Part shown: piece by piece, positions 1,067 to 39,426 of the stretch | Layout of the letters: each line of letters begins with the position of its first letter | How positions within the stretch are numbered: the stretch's first letter is position 1 | Assembly: GCA_018303185.1 (NCBI GenBank) | Contig: JAGVYR010000068.1 | Location: 1-39,752 of the forward strand | Direction of reading: 5' to 3' | From: Candidatus Woesearchaeota archaeon | GTDB lineage: Archaea > Nanobdellota > Nanobdellia > Woesearchaeales > GW2011-AR4 | DNA: 39,752 nucleotides | The notes under the pieces: generated by a model | The model's database searches: none | What the model saw: only the letters and a program-made list of their open reading frames with translations | Told to the model about the DNA's origin: nothing | Program-made: the position numbers and the translations under genes

Positions 1067-1333
1067 TTATGAACTCGGGTCAAATATTATCCTAGAATCA
1101 GTAAGATATGTTCTCTGCGGCTCTCCGTATTTAGGCTTGATTGTTTCTGGCATTTTTCCTGTATTCAGCCAGAAATCTACTTCCATCATTCCAGGTTTTT
1201 CTCCCATCCTAACCTGAAGTGTTGGATCTTTGCCGATAACACCGCCCTCTGGTATAATGAGATGTGTTATGTTTGCGGGTTTTCTTGAAATCGGCCCCGG
1301 CTGCCATCCCAATGTTGGAGTTTGGTCTCTCAT
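1067..1333 (-). CDS. Hypothetical small protein (88 aa)
   Basis: I do not recognise this family. The product is 88 residues, rich in Pro, Gly and charged residues, with no membrane segment or signal peptide (for example IIPEGGVIGKDP and EKPGMMEVDFW). It is preferred over the overlapping plus-strand frames because its composition is that of a soluble protein, while those frames look like reversed reading. A TATA-like atttaaat at 1358-1365 lies about 27 bases before the ATG, the spacing of an archaeal leaderless promoter. It lies downstream of, and in the same direction as, the Toprim gene. It could still be a spurious frame. Confidence 0.5.
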   Translation of the reverse strand: MRDQTPTLGWQPGPISRKPANITHLIIPEGGVIGKDPTLQVRMGEKPGMMEVDFWLNTGKMPETIKPKYGEPQRTYLTDSRIIFDPSS

Positions 1334-1357
1334 GCTATCAATAAATCATTCCAAAGA

Positions 1358-1365
1358 TTTAAATT
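1358..1365 (-). promoter_or_regulatory. TATA-like box for the 88-aa gene
   Basis: The sequence atttaaat is centred about 28 bases upstream of the minus-strand ATG at 1333. That is the usual TATA-to-start distance in archaea, so the mRNA would be leaderless. The box overlaps the left arm of the inverted repeat at 1365-1399 by one base. Confidence 0.35.
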
Positions 1366-1399
1366 TTTTGCCTGTCAATTTTTTAAAATCAGGCAAAAA
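1365..1399. repeat. 10-bp perfect inverted repeat between Toprim and 88-aa genes
   Basis: Arms tttttgcctg (1365-1374) and caggcaaaaa (1390-1399) are perfect complements around a 15-base AT-rich loop. The right arm ends directly before the stop codon of the Toprim gene (minus strand, stop at 1400-1402), so the hairpin would form the 3' end of that transcript. There is no long U-run after it on the minus strand, so it is more likely a 3'-end stabilising or processing structure than a classic terminator. Confidence 0.5.
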
Positions 1400-1780
1400 T
1401 CACCTTTCCATTGCCGATAAATAAGAAATCAAGCCCTCAATCTGCCTCAGCTTTGTCTCTTTGAACAGGAATTCCCTGAAAGTGTTGTCGACTTTTATGC
1501 CGAACTGCTGCAGGCCTGAGTTTAATTTCCCATAAAGCTCCTTTCCCTTGCTGTCAAGGTCTGTGAGTATTATGCATTCTCTGGAATTTGAGGCTACCTC
1601 TTCTATTACGTGGTAGAGCGGCTGTTTGCTTAATGTAATTATATTGAAAATTCCGAACTTTTCAAGGGCTTTTTTGTCTTTCTTACCTTCGACAATTACA
1701 AGCTTTTTTGATTTTTTAATATCTTCAAGGTGCTTCAGCAATTCTGTATGCCTATCCATAAGCATTGGGAATAATGACAA
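1400..1780 (-). CDS. Toprim-domain protein (archaeal primase/RNase M5-like)
   Basis: A 126-residue protein that is essentially one Toprim domain. The conserved glutamate motif is LVIVEGKKDKKAL (Glu31) and the DxD motif is IILTDLDSKGKEL (Asp74, Asp76). These acidic residues bind Mg in topoisomerases, DnaG-type primases, OLD nucleases and RNase M5. Small single-domain Toprim proteins are common in archaea, but their role is poorly defined. Alternative starts are Met6 (1765) and Met8 (1759); the latter would remove the overlap with the primase frame. It is divergent from the fused primase gene and the two share a start region, which suggests related regulation and perhaps a nucleic-acid role. 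Domain call is strong; function is not assigned. Confidence 0.8.
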   Translation of the reverse strand: MSLFPMLMDRHTELLKHLEDIKKSKKLVIVEGKKDKKALEKFGIFNIITLSKQPLYHVIEEVASNSRECIILTDLDSKGKELYGKLNSGLQQFGIKVDNTFREFLFKETKLRQIEGLISYLSAMER

Positions 1781-3213
1781 TTATTAAAAATTGTGCATTC
1801 TTCTTGCCCTATATGCTCCCCCCGTACATAACGCTAAACCATTACAAGAGAAGGGAAGTGCAGGAAGAGATAGCCGCAGCCGCGAAAAACAGGGAAGTCG
1901 CTGTCAAGTTCGGCGACCAGTTCGGGAACAGGCCGGATGCTATAAATTATCCAAATGAGATAATAGAGCTGGCAAAGCAAGGGGCAACTTCCTTCCATGT
2001 TTCCGAGGAAAGGTGGGAGAATCCGCTGCTCATAAGGACTGACATGAGAAAGGAAGAGACTGAGAAGCTTAGGACGGGCTGGGATTTAGTGCTGGACATT
2101 GACTGCGGCATCTTCGGGTATTCTAGGATAGCGGCTGACCTCGCCATAAAAGCATTGAAGTACAACGGCGTAAAGTCCATTTCGTGCAAGTTCTCCGGCA
2201 ACAAAGGATTCCATATAGGCGTGCCTTTCGAGGCCTTTCCTGAAACTGTCGGAAGCTATAATGTAAAGGAGATGTTTCCCGAAGCGCCGAGGAGAATTGC
2301 GCTGTACATATCAAGCATGATAATGGGGCCATTGGGAGAAAAAATACTCAATCTTGAGAAAGACATAAGCAAGGTTGCTGAGAAAGTTGGAAAGAGTGTT
2401 CCAGAAATAACTGGCTATAAGCTGGATGAAAACAAGAACAGGGCAAAGATACTTGACGCAAAGCCGTTCCTTGAGATTGATACTATCCTGATAGCTTCAA
2501 GGCATTTGTACAGGATGCCGTATTCCCTGCATGAAAAATCAGGGCTTGTTTCTGTTCCTTTAAACCCGGACAAAGTTCTTGAATTTGAAAAAGAGTATGC
2601 AAAGCCTGACGAGCTGAAGGTTTCGAAGTATAGGTTCCTTGGTGCTTCGAAGGCTGTGAAAGGGGAAGCCAAGCAGCTCATAACACAGGCATTTGATTTT
2701 ACGATACCTGAAGAAGAATCGAGAATGGGCAGGAAAAGGGAATTTGAAGTGCCTGAAGAAGCTGTTCCGGAAGAATTGTTCCCGCCGTGCATCAAAAAGA
2801 TTCTTCTTGGATTGGAGGATGGCAGGAAAAGGGCCCTGTTTGTATTGACAAACTTTCTCTCAAGCGCAGGCTGGGACTATGAAAGCATGGAAAAAATTCT
2901 TGGAGAATGGAACAAAAGAAATAAAGAACCTTTGAAGGAAGTATATATCAAAGGGCAGCTTCGCTATCATAAGCAGGGCTTGAAGAAGATACTGCCTCCA
3001 AACTGCCCCAAGCTGCAGGAACTGATTCCGCTGCCAAACCAGCAGAACTATTACACTGACCTTAGGGTATGCTCTCCCGATAATTTGTGCGGCAGGATAA
3101 GGAATCCTGTGAATTATTCTATAAGGAAAGGGTCTGGCGGGCAAGGAAAGAAAGGGGGAAAGGCCGGGAAAGAGAGCGCCCAAAAAACAGCAGAAACACC
3201 GAAAAATGGCTGA
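1765..3213 (+). CDS. priS: DNA primase, fused PriS-PriL single chain
   Basis: A 482-residue primase joining both subunits of the archaeal/eukaryotic enzyme. The catalytic PriS part shows DLVLDIDC (Asp111, Asp113), SGNKGFH (144-150) and the RMPYSLHEK motif (about 250-258). From about residue 339 the chain has the PriL C-terminal pattern: Cys342 in FPPC, Cys414 in PPNC, and Cys436 and Cys442, the four expected 4Fe-4S ligands. The PriL N-terminal domain is missing. The enzyme would make RNA/DNA primers at replication forks. Nanoarchaeum equitans has a comparable fused primase, so this supports a DPANN origin. The true start may be Met17 (1813), since the first 16 residues are not family-like and overlap the divergent Toprim gene. 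The last 30 residues are a Lys/Gly-rich tail. Confidence 0.9.
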   Translation: MGIMTIIKNCAFFLPYMLPPYITLNHYKRREVQEEIAAAAKNREVAVKFGDQFGNRPDAINYPNEIIELAKQGATSFHVSEERWENPLLIRTDMRKEETEKLRTGWDLVLDIDCGIFGYSRIAADLAIKALKYNGVKSISCKFSGNKGFHIGVPFEAFPETVGSYNVKEMFPEAPRRIALYISSMIMGPLGEKILNLEKDISKVAEKVGKSVPEITGYKLDENKNRAKILDAKPFLEIDTILIASRHLYRMPYSLHEKSGLVSVPLNPDKVLEFEKEYAKPDELKVSKYRFLGASKAVKGEAKQLITQAFDFTIPEEESRMGRKREFEVPEEAVPEELFPPCIKKILLGLEDGRKRALFVLTNFLSSAGWDYESMEKILGEWNKRNKEPLKEVYIKGQLRYHKQGLKKILPPNCPKLQELIPLPNQQNYYTDLRVCSPDNLCGRIRNPVNYSIRKGSGGQGKKGGKAGKESAQKTAETPKNG

Positions 3214-34183: not shown

Positions 34184-35353
34184 ATGAAAAAAGCCCAGTC
34201 AGGCATGAATGCTGCAGTGTTAGTGGCCATAATCGCCGGCCTTATCATATTATACATATTGTTTCTTCCGTCAGTTGAAAGGGAGCAGCTTCTTGAGGGT
34301 GAAGTGAAAGCCAAGGGCGGAGATAACGGAAATGATAAAGACGTGCTTCTAAGGGAATTTCCCGGCAGGCTGGATGTTATTGACAACATAGGCGCAAAGA
34401 ATATCCCGAATATCTTCCTGTTTGAAGAGACAAACTCGAAAATCCTTGACACGATAAACCCGCTTGTTGTGAGGAACGGCATATTTGACAAGAAGCCTGC
34501 AACAGCCTCATTCTCGCTTGAGGATATTGAAAACACTGACAATGTGATGCTTACTTTTACCGCAGAAAAGCACAAAGGTACGCTTACAATAAAGCTGAAC
34601 GGGCAGTCAATCTACGAGAACAGCATAGATTCCCTGAATCCCGAGCCTATAAAGCTCAGGAAGAGCGCTTTGGAAAGGGACAATACCCTGGAATTTTCAG
34701 TTTCCGGGGTTGGAGTGAAGTTCTGGAGCACCAATGAATACAGCCTTGACGGCATACAGGTTGTTGGCGACATAACTGACAAGAGCAGGCAGGAAGCGCT
34801 TAATGTCTTTACACTTACGGGGGAGGAGTTCTATAATATTGATGAGGCAACACTGAAATTCATACCATACTGCTCCGGCGTGCAGAATGTTGGGAGGCTT
34901 GATGTCTCGATAAACAGCAAGAACGTCTTTTCGGCAGTGCCTGTCTGCGAGGACCCCTACAAGCAGGTAATCCCGACAGGGGTGTTCAACATAGGAGAGA
35001 ACAGGATCATCTTCAAGACCGGAAAGGGAAGCTACAGCGTTGAGCAGATAAGGCTTGACTTCAAGGCAAAGGAGCAGAAGACCAAGGTTTATTTCTTTGA
35101 GGTAAACAGCACTCTGCTTAAGGATATTGAGGACAATGACAAAGACGTGGAGCTAAGGCTTGAATTCGTTGAGGACCGGGAGAACAAGAGGGCCGACATA
35201 AATGTCAATGACCGCTTCCTCAGCCTTGACCAGGAAGAAAAGGCTTACAGCAAGGCCATAACTGACAGGATAAAGGAAGGCAACAATTTTATCGAGATAA
35301 GGCCAAGGACAGAGCTTGACATAGTAGAGATAAAGGTTGAAGTTGTTGATTGA
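34184..35353 (+). CDS. Anchored envelope protein with pilin-like N-terminus
   Basis: 389 residues. The start KKAQSGMNAAVLVAIIAGLI and ILYILFLPSV is one hydrophobic helix (about 9-30) after a short basic head; the QSG just before it resembles a class III (prepilin) cleavage site, but uncut anchoring is equally possible. The rest is outside the cell, acidic and beta-rich (EKHKGTLTIKLNGQSIYE, GVGVKFWSTNEYSLDGIQVV) and contains only two Cys (about 233 and 257). I do not know its function. It is first of four co-oriented envelope genes and precedes the lytic-transglycosylase-like gene by 63 bases, so it may anchor or scaffold that protein. Start chosen by gaggag 6-12 bases before. Confidence 0.7.
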   Translation: MKKAQSGMNAAVLVAIIAGLIILYILFLPSVEREQLLEGEVKAKGGDNGNDKDVLLREFPGRLDVIDNIGAKNIPNIFLFEETNSKILDTINPLVVRNGIFDKKPATASFSLEDIENTDNVMLTFTAEKHKGTLTIKLNGQSIYENSIDSLNPEPIKLRKSALERDNTLEFSVSGVGVKFWSTNEYSLDGIQVVGDITDKSRQEALNVFTLTGEEFYNIDEATLKFIPYCSGVQNVGRLDVSINSKNVFSAVPVCEDPYKQVIPTGVFNIGENRIIFKTGKGSYSVEQIRLDFKAKEQKTKVYFFEVNSTLLKDIEDNDKDVELRLEFVEDRENKRADINVNDRFLSLDQEEKAYSKAITDRIKEGNNFIEIRPRTELDIVEIKVEVVD

Positions 35354-35416: not shown

Positions 35417-38416
35417 ATGGCTGATGACGAAAGAGAAAAGGATATGCAGAGAAGGGCAGAAGAGTTCATGAAAGATGAAGAAAATCTTAATGAGCAAAGC
35501 CGCAAGAGAGAGGAAGATTTTGAAAATCGGGCCAGAAAACAAGCAGCGGCAGGATGGAGAAAGGAAAGATTATATGGAGTCATTATAAGCAAGCAGGGAA
35601 TGAAAGCTGCTGCGCAGAATGTAGGGAGAGTTGGTGCTGGGGCTGTAAAGTGGGCCGCCCCAAAAGCTGGCGCAGGCCTGATGGGGGGCCTTGCAATAGG
35701 CGGGGCTGCCGGAGCTGCTGCCGGCAGGGCAATGGCAGGCAACGGCATCTTTTTCATACTGCTTTCTGCACTGCTTTACCTTTCAGACATATATATAACC
35801 GGATTCAACGGCATTGACATCACTTTGTTTCTTCAGAGCGCGTCGCTTGGAAGCGCTTTCGGGTACATAGGGTATATATTCAACAGCTTTGTTGTAATAA
35901 TCGCGCTGGGCTACTATTTCCTTGCGAGGCCAAGCGGCAGAGAATTGGTTTCTTTCGTGATGATAATAATGCTGTCCTCGACAATTTTCTTCATGGGTGG
36001 CTTTGACAGGGGGCTGTTTCATCTTATATTCGTAATCATAGTCTATGTCCTTTTCATAAAGCCGTCTTCACAGGATGCCGCAACTTCCAATTTCATTGTG
36101 TTCGGGCTGATGCTCTTCGATTTTTTTGGGTACGGCATATTAACGCATGCGCTTGGAGGCACTCAGAATATTGCGGCGGCTTTTGTATCGAACAGGCTCC
36201 TTCTGCCGGTATGGTTCTACTATTCCCTGATATTCACTCACGAGCATGAGAAAGGATGGCTGGCTTCTGCCCTGATTATCATAGTGATAATACTAAATGT
36301 CTTCTACTTCGCCCAAGGAATGATGGGCGCAACAAATTTTCAGTCAGTCATTTCACAGGAGCAGCGCCAGGGGCTTTTTGACGGCCTTAAGACGAGCGTT
36401 TCGAATATGCTGAAGGCTGCGAGCCAGATAAGCACGAACATACAAAAAAACCTTGAGCAGAGGGTTATGTATGCGGTTACGGGGAAGGTCGAGGAGAACA
36501 AGTATGAGCCGCTTGGAGTCTATCTGGAAAATGTCAAGAGCCTTGATCCAAAGTACTACGCCCGCGATACAGTGACGATAGTTGGCACTGTCAAGGCGAG
36601 GACGCTTGACGACCCAATAAACATTAAGCTTGGATGCTTCAGGGAAAAGAACAGCCAGAAAGCGGCACCCGACAAAATACAGCCAGACAAGACTTTCTCC
36701 ATATATACCCTTGAAGAGCAGGACTTTGTGTGCCAATTCAAAACTTCCGATACGGATGTCGGCGCCTATTCAATAACTGCCACTGCAAATTTCAATTTTG
36801 ACACTCTTGCTTACCTGAAGGCGTATTTCATGGACAGGGAAAGGTACAGGGCTATGACGAGGGAAGGCCTTGACCCATTAGACGAATTTGGCATAAAAGA
36901 CAAGAAGCCTGTTGCTGCATACACCAACGGTCCCGTAGGCATAGACATGTCTACAACTTCTGCCCTGACCGGAGTTGGCGAACAGGCGCCAACATTGCCG
37001 AGGCTTAACATAAATCTTGTCAATAGGCCCGGATGGGAAGGGAAAATTGACAGTATAAGGGAGTTCGTAGTGCTGCTTCCTGCCGGGATAAGCATAGAAA
37101 AGCCAGCAGAAAGCTGCACAAGGCCTTTCAAGGAATACAGCAAAAGTGAATGCCTGCAGTCATGCGTCACTCTTGTCGAGAAGCCGTGCACAGAGGCGTG
37201 CGCTGCGCAGCTCGGCGATGGCCGCACCAAGTGCGAGGCCAGCTGCAGGGCGAGCACAAAAGACAGGTGCGAGCCAAGCTGTACTGACCTTTTTGTGAGT
37301 GATGAAGGCAATGCAGAGTACAAGGCTTATGCTCTCGACGTAGGCATGATAAATTCACTTTACGGCAATGAGCTCAAGAACATAGACAAGGATCGCTTTA
37401 GGTCTTTCAGCTGCGAGCTGTCCATTGATTCCAAGGCCATTCTCGGCAATACGCCTATAACAACGAAATTCTTCAGGGCAAGGGCAAGATACGAATACAC
37501 TGTGGAGAAGAAGACGTCCGTAAATGTCGAGAAGGTTCCTGAGCCGATAAGCGCTTCAGGCGCGATTGTTGTGCCTCCCGGGCTTAATGCGGAGGGAGAT
37601 GCGAAGAAGAAAATCATAGAGACTGCAAGAGACATGAGCGCCGATTCGCAGCTTACTGCGCTTGCCCTTGCAATTGCGCATCATGAGAGCAGGGGCTCTT
37701 TTAAGCACTGCAAGTCAGGCGGCATAAGCTGCAACACGCAGGATCAGGTTGAATGCAGCAGCGCCAACAGCTGCGGGCTTATGCAGATAAACAGGGATGT
37801 TCATCCTCTGCAAGGCTATGGTTGCGGTCAGGGCCAGACAATATTTGATGCAGAATGCAACATAAGAACCGGCATAAGGATACTTCAGGACAATTACAAT
37901 AATTATGGGAACAATAATGAAAGATATGCAGGCGCTGTAACAAGCAATTGCAAAGATTTGTATTACCAAAGAACGTACCTGAACTACCAGGGATGGGACA
38001 GGGCAATAAGGGCGTATAACGGGCTAGGGTGCAATGCTACTAGAGCCGACAGGACTTATGTAGAATCAGTAAAGCCCTATTGGGAAGGCTACAAGAAGTT
38101 TGATTTCGGCAGGAGTGCAAAGGCCGCACCGCCGACAAACATTGCAGCTTCTGCAGTGAGCGGCGGGATAATGCTTACATGGGCTTTATCGGCTGATGAC
38201 GGGAATAATGAGAATGACATAAGCAATTATTATATACTGGTCAGGGAAAGTACTGACAGCGCATATGGCGATATTGCAGGCATGGGCCCGCAGACTGCCG
38301 AGTACACAGACAATTCTGTGCAGCCCGGCAAGACATACTGCTACAAGGTCAGGGCCTATGACAAAGAAGGAAACTTTGCTGATTCGAGCACAGAAGCATG
38401 TGCAACAGCAGGCTGA
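35417..38416 (+). CDS. Multi-pass membrane protein with transglycosylase/lysozyme-like and FN3 domains
   Basis: 999 residues from ATG 35417 (an in-frame TTG is at 35405). In order: a charged N-terminal region (1-45), an Ala/Gly-rich stretch (74-108), about seven hydrophobic helices (109-302), an extracellular beta region (360-560), a Cys-rich module with four CX3C motifs (579-622), a lytic-transglycosylase/lysozyme-like domain (about 735-890), and a fibronectin type III domain (905-996). The transglycosylase domain has Glu757 in AIAHHESRGS, the SCGLMQIN motif (785-792) and AYNG (866-869), all in SLT-type enzymes. These cleave peptidoglycan in bacteria, which archaea lack. The gene lies between two surface genes on the same strand. 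Possible roles are a VirB1-like opener in a contact-dependent system, or use against bacteria. Function is inferred. Confidence 0.8.
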   Translation: MADDEREKDMQRRAEEFMKDEENLNEQSRKREEDFENRARKQAAAGWRKERLYGVIISKQGMKAAAQNVGRVGAGAVKWAAPKAGAGLMGGLAIGGAAGAAAGRAMAGNGIFFILLSALLYLSDIYITGFNGIDITLFLQSASLGSAFGYIGYIFNSFVVIIALGYYFLARPSGRELVSFVMIIMLSSTIFFMGGFDRGLFHLIFVIIVYVLFIKPSSQDAATSNFIVFGLMLFDFFGYGILTHALGGTQNIAAAFVSNRLLLPVWFYYSLIFTHEHEKGWLASALIIIVIILNVFYFAQGMMGATNFQSVISQEQRQGLFDGLKTSVSNMLKAASQISTNIQKNLEQRVMYAVTGKVEENKYEPLGVYLENVKSLDPKYYARDTVTIVGTVKARTLDDPINIKLGCFREKNSQKAAPDKIQPDKTFSIYTLEEQDFVCQFKTSDTDVGAYSITATANFNFDTLAYLKAYFMDRERYRAMTREGLDPLDEFGIKDKKPVAAYTNGPVGIDMSTTSALTGVGEQAPTLPRLNINLVNRPGWEGKIDSIREFVVLLPAGISIEKPAESCTRPFKEYSKSECLQSCVTLVEKPCTEACAAQLGDGRTKCEASCRASTKDRCEPSCTDLFVSDEGNAEYKAYALDVGMINSLYGNELKNIDKDRFRSFSCELSIDSKAILGNTPITTKFFRARARYEYTVEKKTSVNVEKVPEPISASGAIVVPPGLNAEGDAKKKIIETARDMSADSQLTALALAIAHHESRGSFKHCKSGGISCNTQDQVECSSANSCGLMQINRDVHPLQGYGCGQGQTIFDAECNIRTGIRILQDNYNNYGNNNERYAGAVTSNCKDLYYQRTYLNYQGWDRAIRAYNGLGCNATRADRTYVESVKPYWEGYKKFDFGRSAKAAPPTNIAASAVSGGIMLTWALSADDGNNENDISNYYILVRESTDSAYGDIAGMGPQTAEYTDNSVQPGKTYCYKVRAYDKEGNFADSSTEACATAG

Positions 38417-38421
38417 TAAAA

Positions 38422-39426
38422 ATGAGGGGAATAAAAATTATGGCTATGATGGCGCTTCTGATTATTGCGGTTTCGGGCTGCAAATCGTCAGGATCTGCCT
38501 CCATAGCAGATATAGACGTGAGGAAAGGCACTGAAGGGCTGTCTATGGAGTTCCTGAAGGGAAGCCCTCCTGATAAAGTCTTTGAAGACGCCCCTTTTTC
38601 TGTCTTTTTCGGCATCCATAATAAAGGGGCTTTTGACATAGGGGGGAAGGAAGGCGGCAGAGGCGTTCTTGTATTGGGGATTGAGAATGATGTTATAGGC
38701 ATTGAGGCTAACGGGTTCGGGGATGCGGAAAGCGCGTCCATGGATAGGCAGACCGGAAAGATTCTTTTGAACCTTGAAGGAAAATCCATGATAAACCCAA
38801 ATGGCATGCAGGATTCTATAAGCATAGGCTTAAGGACAAAAAAGGTAGGCGGGCAAAGTGAATCAAGAAAAAGCACAATATCTGCGACTGCCTGCTATGA
38901 CTACGGGACAACGCTTGAAGGAGAAATCTGCGTGGATACTGACCCAAACAGCCTGAGGCCCGGAAGAAAGCCGTGCAGTGTAAAAGACCTTGCCTTTCCT
39001 CAGGGGCAAGGCGCTCCTGTTGTGATAACAAAAGTTGAATCCCAGATGCTGCCTTCAAACGGGCAGATAAGGCCGAATCTCATAATTTACATAGAAAACA
39101 AGGGAAAAGGGGAAGTGGCGAAGCCCAGTATAGCGGAAAAGGTATGCTCTTCAGGAAATCTCGATGTTGGCGACTTGAACCTGCTTTCTGTAAATGCGTT
39201 CCTTTCTGACAAGGAGCTGCAGTGCACATCTTCAAGGATGTCTGAGGACCGCGTTATGGTGAGGCTTGACAAGAAGCAGGGAATTGTAAGATGTGTTGCC
39301 CCTGAGGGCGAAGGATATGATGCAAACCTTGATTCCTTCGTGTCTCCAATCAGGATTGAGTTGAAGTATGGATATACTTTCACCATATCAAAGGAGTTTA
39401 TAGTGGAAAGGGTTCTGACCCATTAG
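38422..39426 (+). CDS. Surface lipoprotein
   Basis: 334 residues from ATG 38422, five bases after the transglycosylase-like gene. The start MRGIKIMAMMALLIIAVSGC is a lipoprotein signal with lipobox VSGC, and Cys20 would carry the lipid. The mature part begins with the segment FLKGSPPDKVFEDAPFSVFF, and IHNKGAFDIGGKEG follows; both recur in the next gene, so the two are paralogs. It has six or more Cys in the C-terminal two-thirds and a beta-rich pattern (CARDB-like) with LIIYIENKGKGEVAKPSI. No enzymatic motifs. The short gap indicates cotranscription with the upstream gene, hence a part of the same envelope complex. Confidence 0.72.
   Translation: MRGIKIMAMMALLIIAVSGCKSSGSASIADIDVRKGTEGLSMEFLKGSPPDKVFEDAPFSVFFGIHNKGAFDIGGKEGGRGVLVLGIENDVIGIEANGFGDAESASMDRQTGKILLNLEGKSMINPNGMQDSISIGLRTKKVGGQSESRKSTISATACYDYGTTLEGEICVDTDPNSLRPGRKPCSVKDLAFPQGQGAPVVITKVESQMLPSNGQIRPNLIIYIENKGKGEVAKPSIAEKVCSSGNLDVGDLNLLSVNAFLSDKELQCTSSRMSEDRVMVRLDKKQGIVRCVAPEGEGYDANLDSFVSPIRIELKYGYTFTISKEFIVERVLTH

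Follow-up and report, generated by a model that had tools for sequence, protein, structure and literature searches.

The window analysed here is an entire archaeal contig of 39,752 nucleotides, in which the genes c2, c1 and two copies of c0 follow each other on the forward strand (table 1). The genes near c1 on the same contig are archaeal by their Pfam matches (aRF1, SecY and both PheRS chains), and the closest named relatives of the c1 core in a similarity search come from Woesearchaeota/Nanoarchaeota MAGs; the host of c1 is a woesearchaeote. Contamination or mis-assembly of the c1 locus was considered, and it is ruled out by the archaeal neighbours and by conserved synteny on further contigs, including one of 437 kb. 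A search of NCBIfam with the proteins P0001 to P0003 gave no match.

Table 1. Features of the window, with the c1 gene (product P0001), its domains and its neighbours.
Feature	Position	Strand	Basis or remark
Source stretch	1-39,752		entire contig C7 of a 1.62-Mb assembly, 91% complete
c2, 389 aa, single-pass membrane protein with beta domains	34184..35353	+	conserved 5′ neighbour of c1
c1 scaffold protein P0001, 1003 aa	35405..38416	+	start TTG; ATG possible at 35417
c1 membrane region, residues 114-308	35744..36328	+	AlphaFold model, hydropathy, charges
c1 ectodomain, residues 366-709	36500..37531	+	conserved, beta-rich; alignment of orthologs, model pLDDT about 90
SLT / GH23 lytic-transglycosylase domain (predicted), residues 739-899, 8 Cys	37619..38101	+	Pfam, profiles, motifs
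Codon of predicted catalytic Glu761	37685..37687	+	ortholog alignments
C-terminal fn3 (fibronectin type III) domain, residues 907-1003	38123..38413	+	Foldseek; Pfam sub-threshold
c0 copy 1, 342 aa, lipoprotein-like, lipobox VSGC	38398..39426	+	start may be 38422
c0 copy 2, truncated by contig end	39457..39752	+	conserved tandem c0 position

In the AlphaFold2 model of P0001, which was built from 29 orthologs, a long N-terminal helix is followed by the membrane helices, the ectodomain, the SLT domain and the fn3 domain. Hydropathy distinguishes six clear membrane segments and one weaker one, and the positive charge of the protein is concentrated in the N-terminal tail, all of which is consistent with a predicted N-in/C-out topology. 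Taken together, the helices, the charges and the disulphide-style cysteines indicate that the SLT domain is probably displayed outside the cell on a membrane tether. The initial annotation had described a multi-pass surface protein of a DPANN-like organism that acts outside the cell, with roughly seven N-terminal helices and a C-terminal FN3 domain, and this description agrees with the predicted architecture. The fn3 fold was matched by Foldseek (3mpc, TMt 0.78), although the Pfam match to fn3 (PF00041, residues 909-991) reaches 21.8 bits and lies under the cut-off of 25. Only SLT and fn3-type matches were obtained for P0001 with Pfam, and a peptidoglycan-binding domain was absent among them. 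The ectodomain contains a stretch of eight cysteines between two helices (residues 583-626), forming a Cys-rich helical hairpin. Its comparison with PDB sequences returned no relative, and Foldseek returned only Ig/adhesin-like beta folds; because these matches are weak, with low TM-scores and large rmsd, the ectodomain is left unnamed.

By its sequence, the region between the ectodomain and fn3 is a true SLT (GH23) domain with a predicted catalytic Glu761. The Pfam family SLT (PF01464) scores 29.9 bits over residues 750-871, where the cut-off is 21.3 (E 5.4e-8 in a search of the whole genome). The motifs on which the domain had initially been recognized start at residues 759 (HHESRG), 789 (SCGLMQIN) and 870 (AYNG), and they supply the Glu of the ES motif as well as the G-[LIM]-M-Q-[IV] and YN motifs that characterize SLT domains; the cysteines, estimated earlier at about eight, number exactly 8. 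With phmmer the domain alone had no useful match in the PDB and an alignment profile was required, which matched only lytic transglycosylases and lysozymes (MltC, 1.5e-5; EtgA, 6e-5; goose lysozyme; Slt70). A comparison of the domain with canonical SLT by hhalign gave a probability of 94.7%. The structure search that had been proposed as a check for a lysozyme fold was informative in part: the domain is modelled by AlphaFold2 as helical and with confidence, and in the viral set (BFVD) Foldseek found a putative phage transglycosylase with probability 1.00 but E 0.01, whereas the PDB lists were filled by Ig/fn3 beta folds, for the full model and for the model without fn3 alike.

Conservation of the catalytic residue, read from alignments of the tails, had been named as a second check, and here the result depends on the lineage. 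Glu761 is invariant in all 21 SLT-bearing orthologs of the family; because 21 orthologs keep the domain with this residue, the match is more than a chance resemblance. The residue is also kept in 23 of the 27 SLT slots of the wider set, and in the other four (L181, L183, L184 and L185, all from one family of the order) it is replaced by Thr while the domain is retained. We infer that the SLT tip of P0001 is probably an active enzyme; the four copies with Thr, coming from a single family, make a binding-only role possible in that lineage. The same genome carries a second SLT gene (L001, G000:C13:14426-14704; ORF 1222-2418, minus strand, 398 aa), the product of which is MltD-like (NCBIfam PRK10783.1, 2e-13, far under the cut-off of the model), with a single N-terminal helix and, by eye, a LysM-like C-terminus.

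The remainder of the protein is distributed widely. The scaffold without the SLT part has matches in 30 of the 36 genomes of the family, and the ectodomain profile in 203 of the 353 genomes of the order, with weaker and shorter ectodomain relatives in other orders of the class. The gene order is nearly constant, with aRF1 on the opposite strand, c2, c1, two to four tandem c0 genes and then a gene that resembles replication factor C by eye. Given sufficiently long contigs, the operon order is conserved in 31 loci of the family and in 60 wider loci, and c2 lies upstream of c1 in nearly all loci with enough contig. A typical c2 has about 390 aa, one membrane helix and beta domains, and the c0 proteins are lipoprotein-like paralogs of about 340 aa. 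This conserved order suggests that c2, c1 and c0 constitute a core envelope complex, in which the products would associate with one another.

Two further observations concern this operon. The N-terminus of c2, MKKAQSGMNAAVLVAIIAGLIILYILFLP, is pilin-like in look, and the pattern K-K/R-A/G-Q-S/G ... NAAVLVAIIAGLIILYILFLP (window positions 34184-34270 and other loci) is strongly conserved; it resembles a class III (pilin-type) signal, but lacks the Glu at +5. In addition, 15 of 31 family copies of c1 lie no more than 1.5 kb from a contig end, where a rough estimate gives an expectation of about 7, a pattern that would fit assemblies breaking at the operon because of its tandem paralogs or of variation between strains.

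The comparison of predicted domains across loci shows that the C-terminal slot of c1 is exchangeable and that hydrolases have been swapped between lineages. Among the 26 tails of the family, SLT is found in 16 (E<=0.01), a GH73 glucosaminidase in two and an fn3 match in eight. In the other families of the order, SLT recurs in 14 of 38 tails (E<=0.01), with GH73, Amidase_2, M23, M15_4 and NlpC/P60 occurring at single loci. GH73 thus occupies the slot three times (L078, L085 and L193), while Amidase_2 (L191, 1.3e-32), M23 (L216, 2.8e-17), M15 (the M15_4 match of L230, 1.7e-11) and the combination of NlpC/P60 with SLT (L209) are found elsewhere; a second case of M23 is a 926-aa ORF with both a core match and an M23 match (G245:C10). 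The active-site motifs of the amidase, the M23 and M15 peptidases and the GH73 copies look intact by eye. In L209, NlpC/P60 seems to be without the usual Cys motif, and the SLT domain that follows it retains the Glu. Placed on an ectodomain tree, which was built quickly and has numerous weakly supported branches, the slot label requires 24 changes, and 43 loci carry the label 'none'. A well-supported clade of 17 rows, mainly one genus, has SLT, a second SLT subtype and GH73 alternating within it. Non-enzymatic contents of the slot, namely fn3, crystallin and PKD tails, are found in other loci. One scaffold ends in a beta/gamma-crystallin domain in place of an enzyme (L069:11427-12488); the c0 paralog that comes after it (L069:13978-17064) is unusually large, at 1028 aa, and gave no match in Pfam. 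Because many scaffold-bearing lineages are without a hydrolase, the scaffold complex probably has another base function.

These non-enzymatic tails, the apparent lack of the usual Cys motif in the NlpC/P60 of L209 and the lineage in which Thr replaces Glu while the domain is kept would also fit a tip that no longer cuts and that serves as a lectin-like adhesin on peptidoglycan or another glycan. For the slot as a whole we regard such a binding-only tip as unlikely, given that the Glu is invariant throughout the SLT-bearing members of the family, that the GLMQI and YNG motifs are intact and that the other slot enzymes keep their active-site motifs.

What the slot enzymes have in common leads to their probable target. 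GH23, GH73, amidase, M23, M15 and NlpC/P60 comprise several folds and cleave different bonds, and they share murein as substrate; SLT and GH73 both belong to the lysozyme superfamily and hence do not count as independent folds. The peptidoglycan polymerase GT51 was found in none of the 36 family genomes, and 10 control genomes were positive. The SLT profile was positive in eight control genomes, all of them bacterial, the control archaea including Haloferax, Sulfolobus and Methanosarcina. As mostly unrelated hydrolases occupy one site in cells that lack a murein polymerase, a device directed against bacterial walls is the best reading, and peptidoglycan would be the real substrate of the SLT tip. 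The list of substrates, which had been left open between a bacterium, a host glycan and the cell's own surface sugar, is therefore narrowed towards bacterial peptidoglycan by the slot enzymes and the lack of GT51.

On balance, we consider it probable, with appreciable doubt, that the locus encodes a surface-displayed membrane complex whose exchangeable wall-hydrolase tip acts on bacterial peptidoglycan at contact. A membrane complex of c2, c1 and several c0 lipoproteins would display the C-terminal domain of c1 at the cell surface, this domain being a lytic transglycosylase in the present genome. On touching a bacterium, the tethered enzyme would cut the MurNAc-GlcNAc bonds of its peptidoglycan, and the resulting local loosening or opening of the wall could permit attachment, uptake or attack. 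Both the use at cell contact and its purpose are conjectural in this scheme. Across lineages, the SLT tip would be exchanged for glucosaminidase, amidase, M23, M15 or NlpC/P60 with SLT, as would be predicted if the tip followed differences in partner or prey.

The slot may just sample a wider repertoire, because SLT, Amidase_2 and M23 are common elsewhere in these genomes. Of the 353 genomes in the order, 153 contain M23 and 52 contain Amidase_2, for the most part outside the scaffold and often in ORFs of more than 1000 aa, and SLT domains are likewise common outside the scaffold. Two SLT-containing giant ORFs, L004 (G007:C30) with 3418 aa and L026 (G006:C13) with 2239 aa, perhaps correspond to the large proteins of a 2021 report. 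Such frequencies, like the second SLT gene of this genome, would suit a general set of peptidoglycan hydrolases with a nutritional or antibacterial use, the fusion to the scaffold being incidental. We find this improbable: different hydrolases land repeatedly on one C-terminus of one conserved operon, which is hard to call incidental.

The tip could instead be aimed at the archaeon's own envelope glycan or at the surface of an archaeal host (for instance pseudomurein). The producer has no peptidoglycan polymerase, so that any target in its own envelope would need to be a different glycan, and the known hosts of DPANN are archaea. This target is nevertheless quite improbable, since the same slot accepts amidases and peptidases of types specific to murein peptides, and the many relatives without any hydrolase imply that it is unneeded for the own envelope. 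Least credible, and very improbable, is the VirB1-like helper of type IV secretion or conjugation brought up initially, which would open the wall for a channel: the union of several membrane helices with SLT in one protein recalls it, as does the L209 tail, given the joining of SLT to an amidohydrolase/peptidase domain described for monoderm VirB1 (PMC12102498), but the family almost lacks secretion ATPases (VirD4-type PF02534 marginal in 2 of the 36 genomes, one of them this genome; VirB4/TraG-type PF19044 above the cut-off in 1 of the 36), none is encoded in the operon, and the 25 Pfam families listed for 29 full-length members include no VirB6-type match.

The complex with a wall-hydrolase tip invites a broader and more tentative proposal, which we hold to be possible rather than probable, namely that the Woesearchaeales share an ancestral c2-c1-c0 surface machine whose distal tip is a cassette for bacterial-wall hydrolases, which selection exchanges in step with the bacterial partners. 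If this proposal were true, the machine would define a new class of contact-dependent device by which an archaeon breaches a bacterial wall, and it would provide direct genetic evidence of a life on bacteria for many DPANN. On the question of whether bacteria or archaea are the partners of woesearchaeota, a scaffold with varied peptidoglycan cutters argues for bacteria. The c1 product offers a definite target for activity assays and for localization, and the type of hydrolase can be read from each genome, yielding a predicted partner or wall type that can be compared with co-occurrence data.

Lytic-transglycosylase proteins of Pacearchaeota and Woesearchaeota have already been published, with the suggestion that they bind and degrade bacterial walls (fam00969, PMC8204110; GH23, PMC9723730). 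As far as the accessible portions of these reports go, they share with P0001 the domain class, the group of archaea and the proposed target, but by description they concern large extracellular proteins of up to 3,000 aa or lists of GH23 genes, whereas P0001 is a multi-pass scaffold; a multi-pass scaffold, an operon or an exchange of hydrolases is not described in those portions. Modular peptidoglycan hydrolases of archaea were shown in 2025 to kill bacteria (PMC12352652), and they likewise combine an archaeal origin with catalytic domains for bacterial walls and show patchy gain and replacement of the catalytic domain; that survey, however, required a cell-wall-binding domain, while P0001 has fn3 only and is tethered by membrane helices. 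The wall hydrolases of VirB1/type IV secretion systems are also SLT-type and sometimes joined to a peptidase domain, but they act on the secretor's own wall, and c1 has no type IV secretion ATPase partners in its operon. EtgA and MltC, the nearest solved sequences to the SLT domain by profile, are bacterial and act on the peptidoglycan of their producer, whereas c1 is archaeal. Lytic-transglycosylase proteins of DPANN are thus already known, and it is the scaffold and its swappable slot that appear new in the literature searched.
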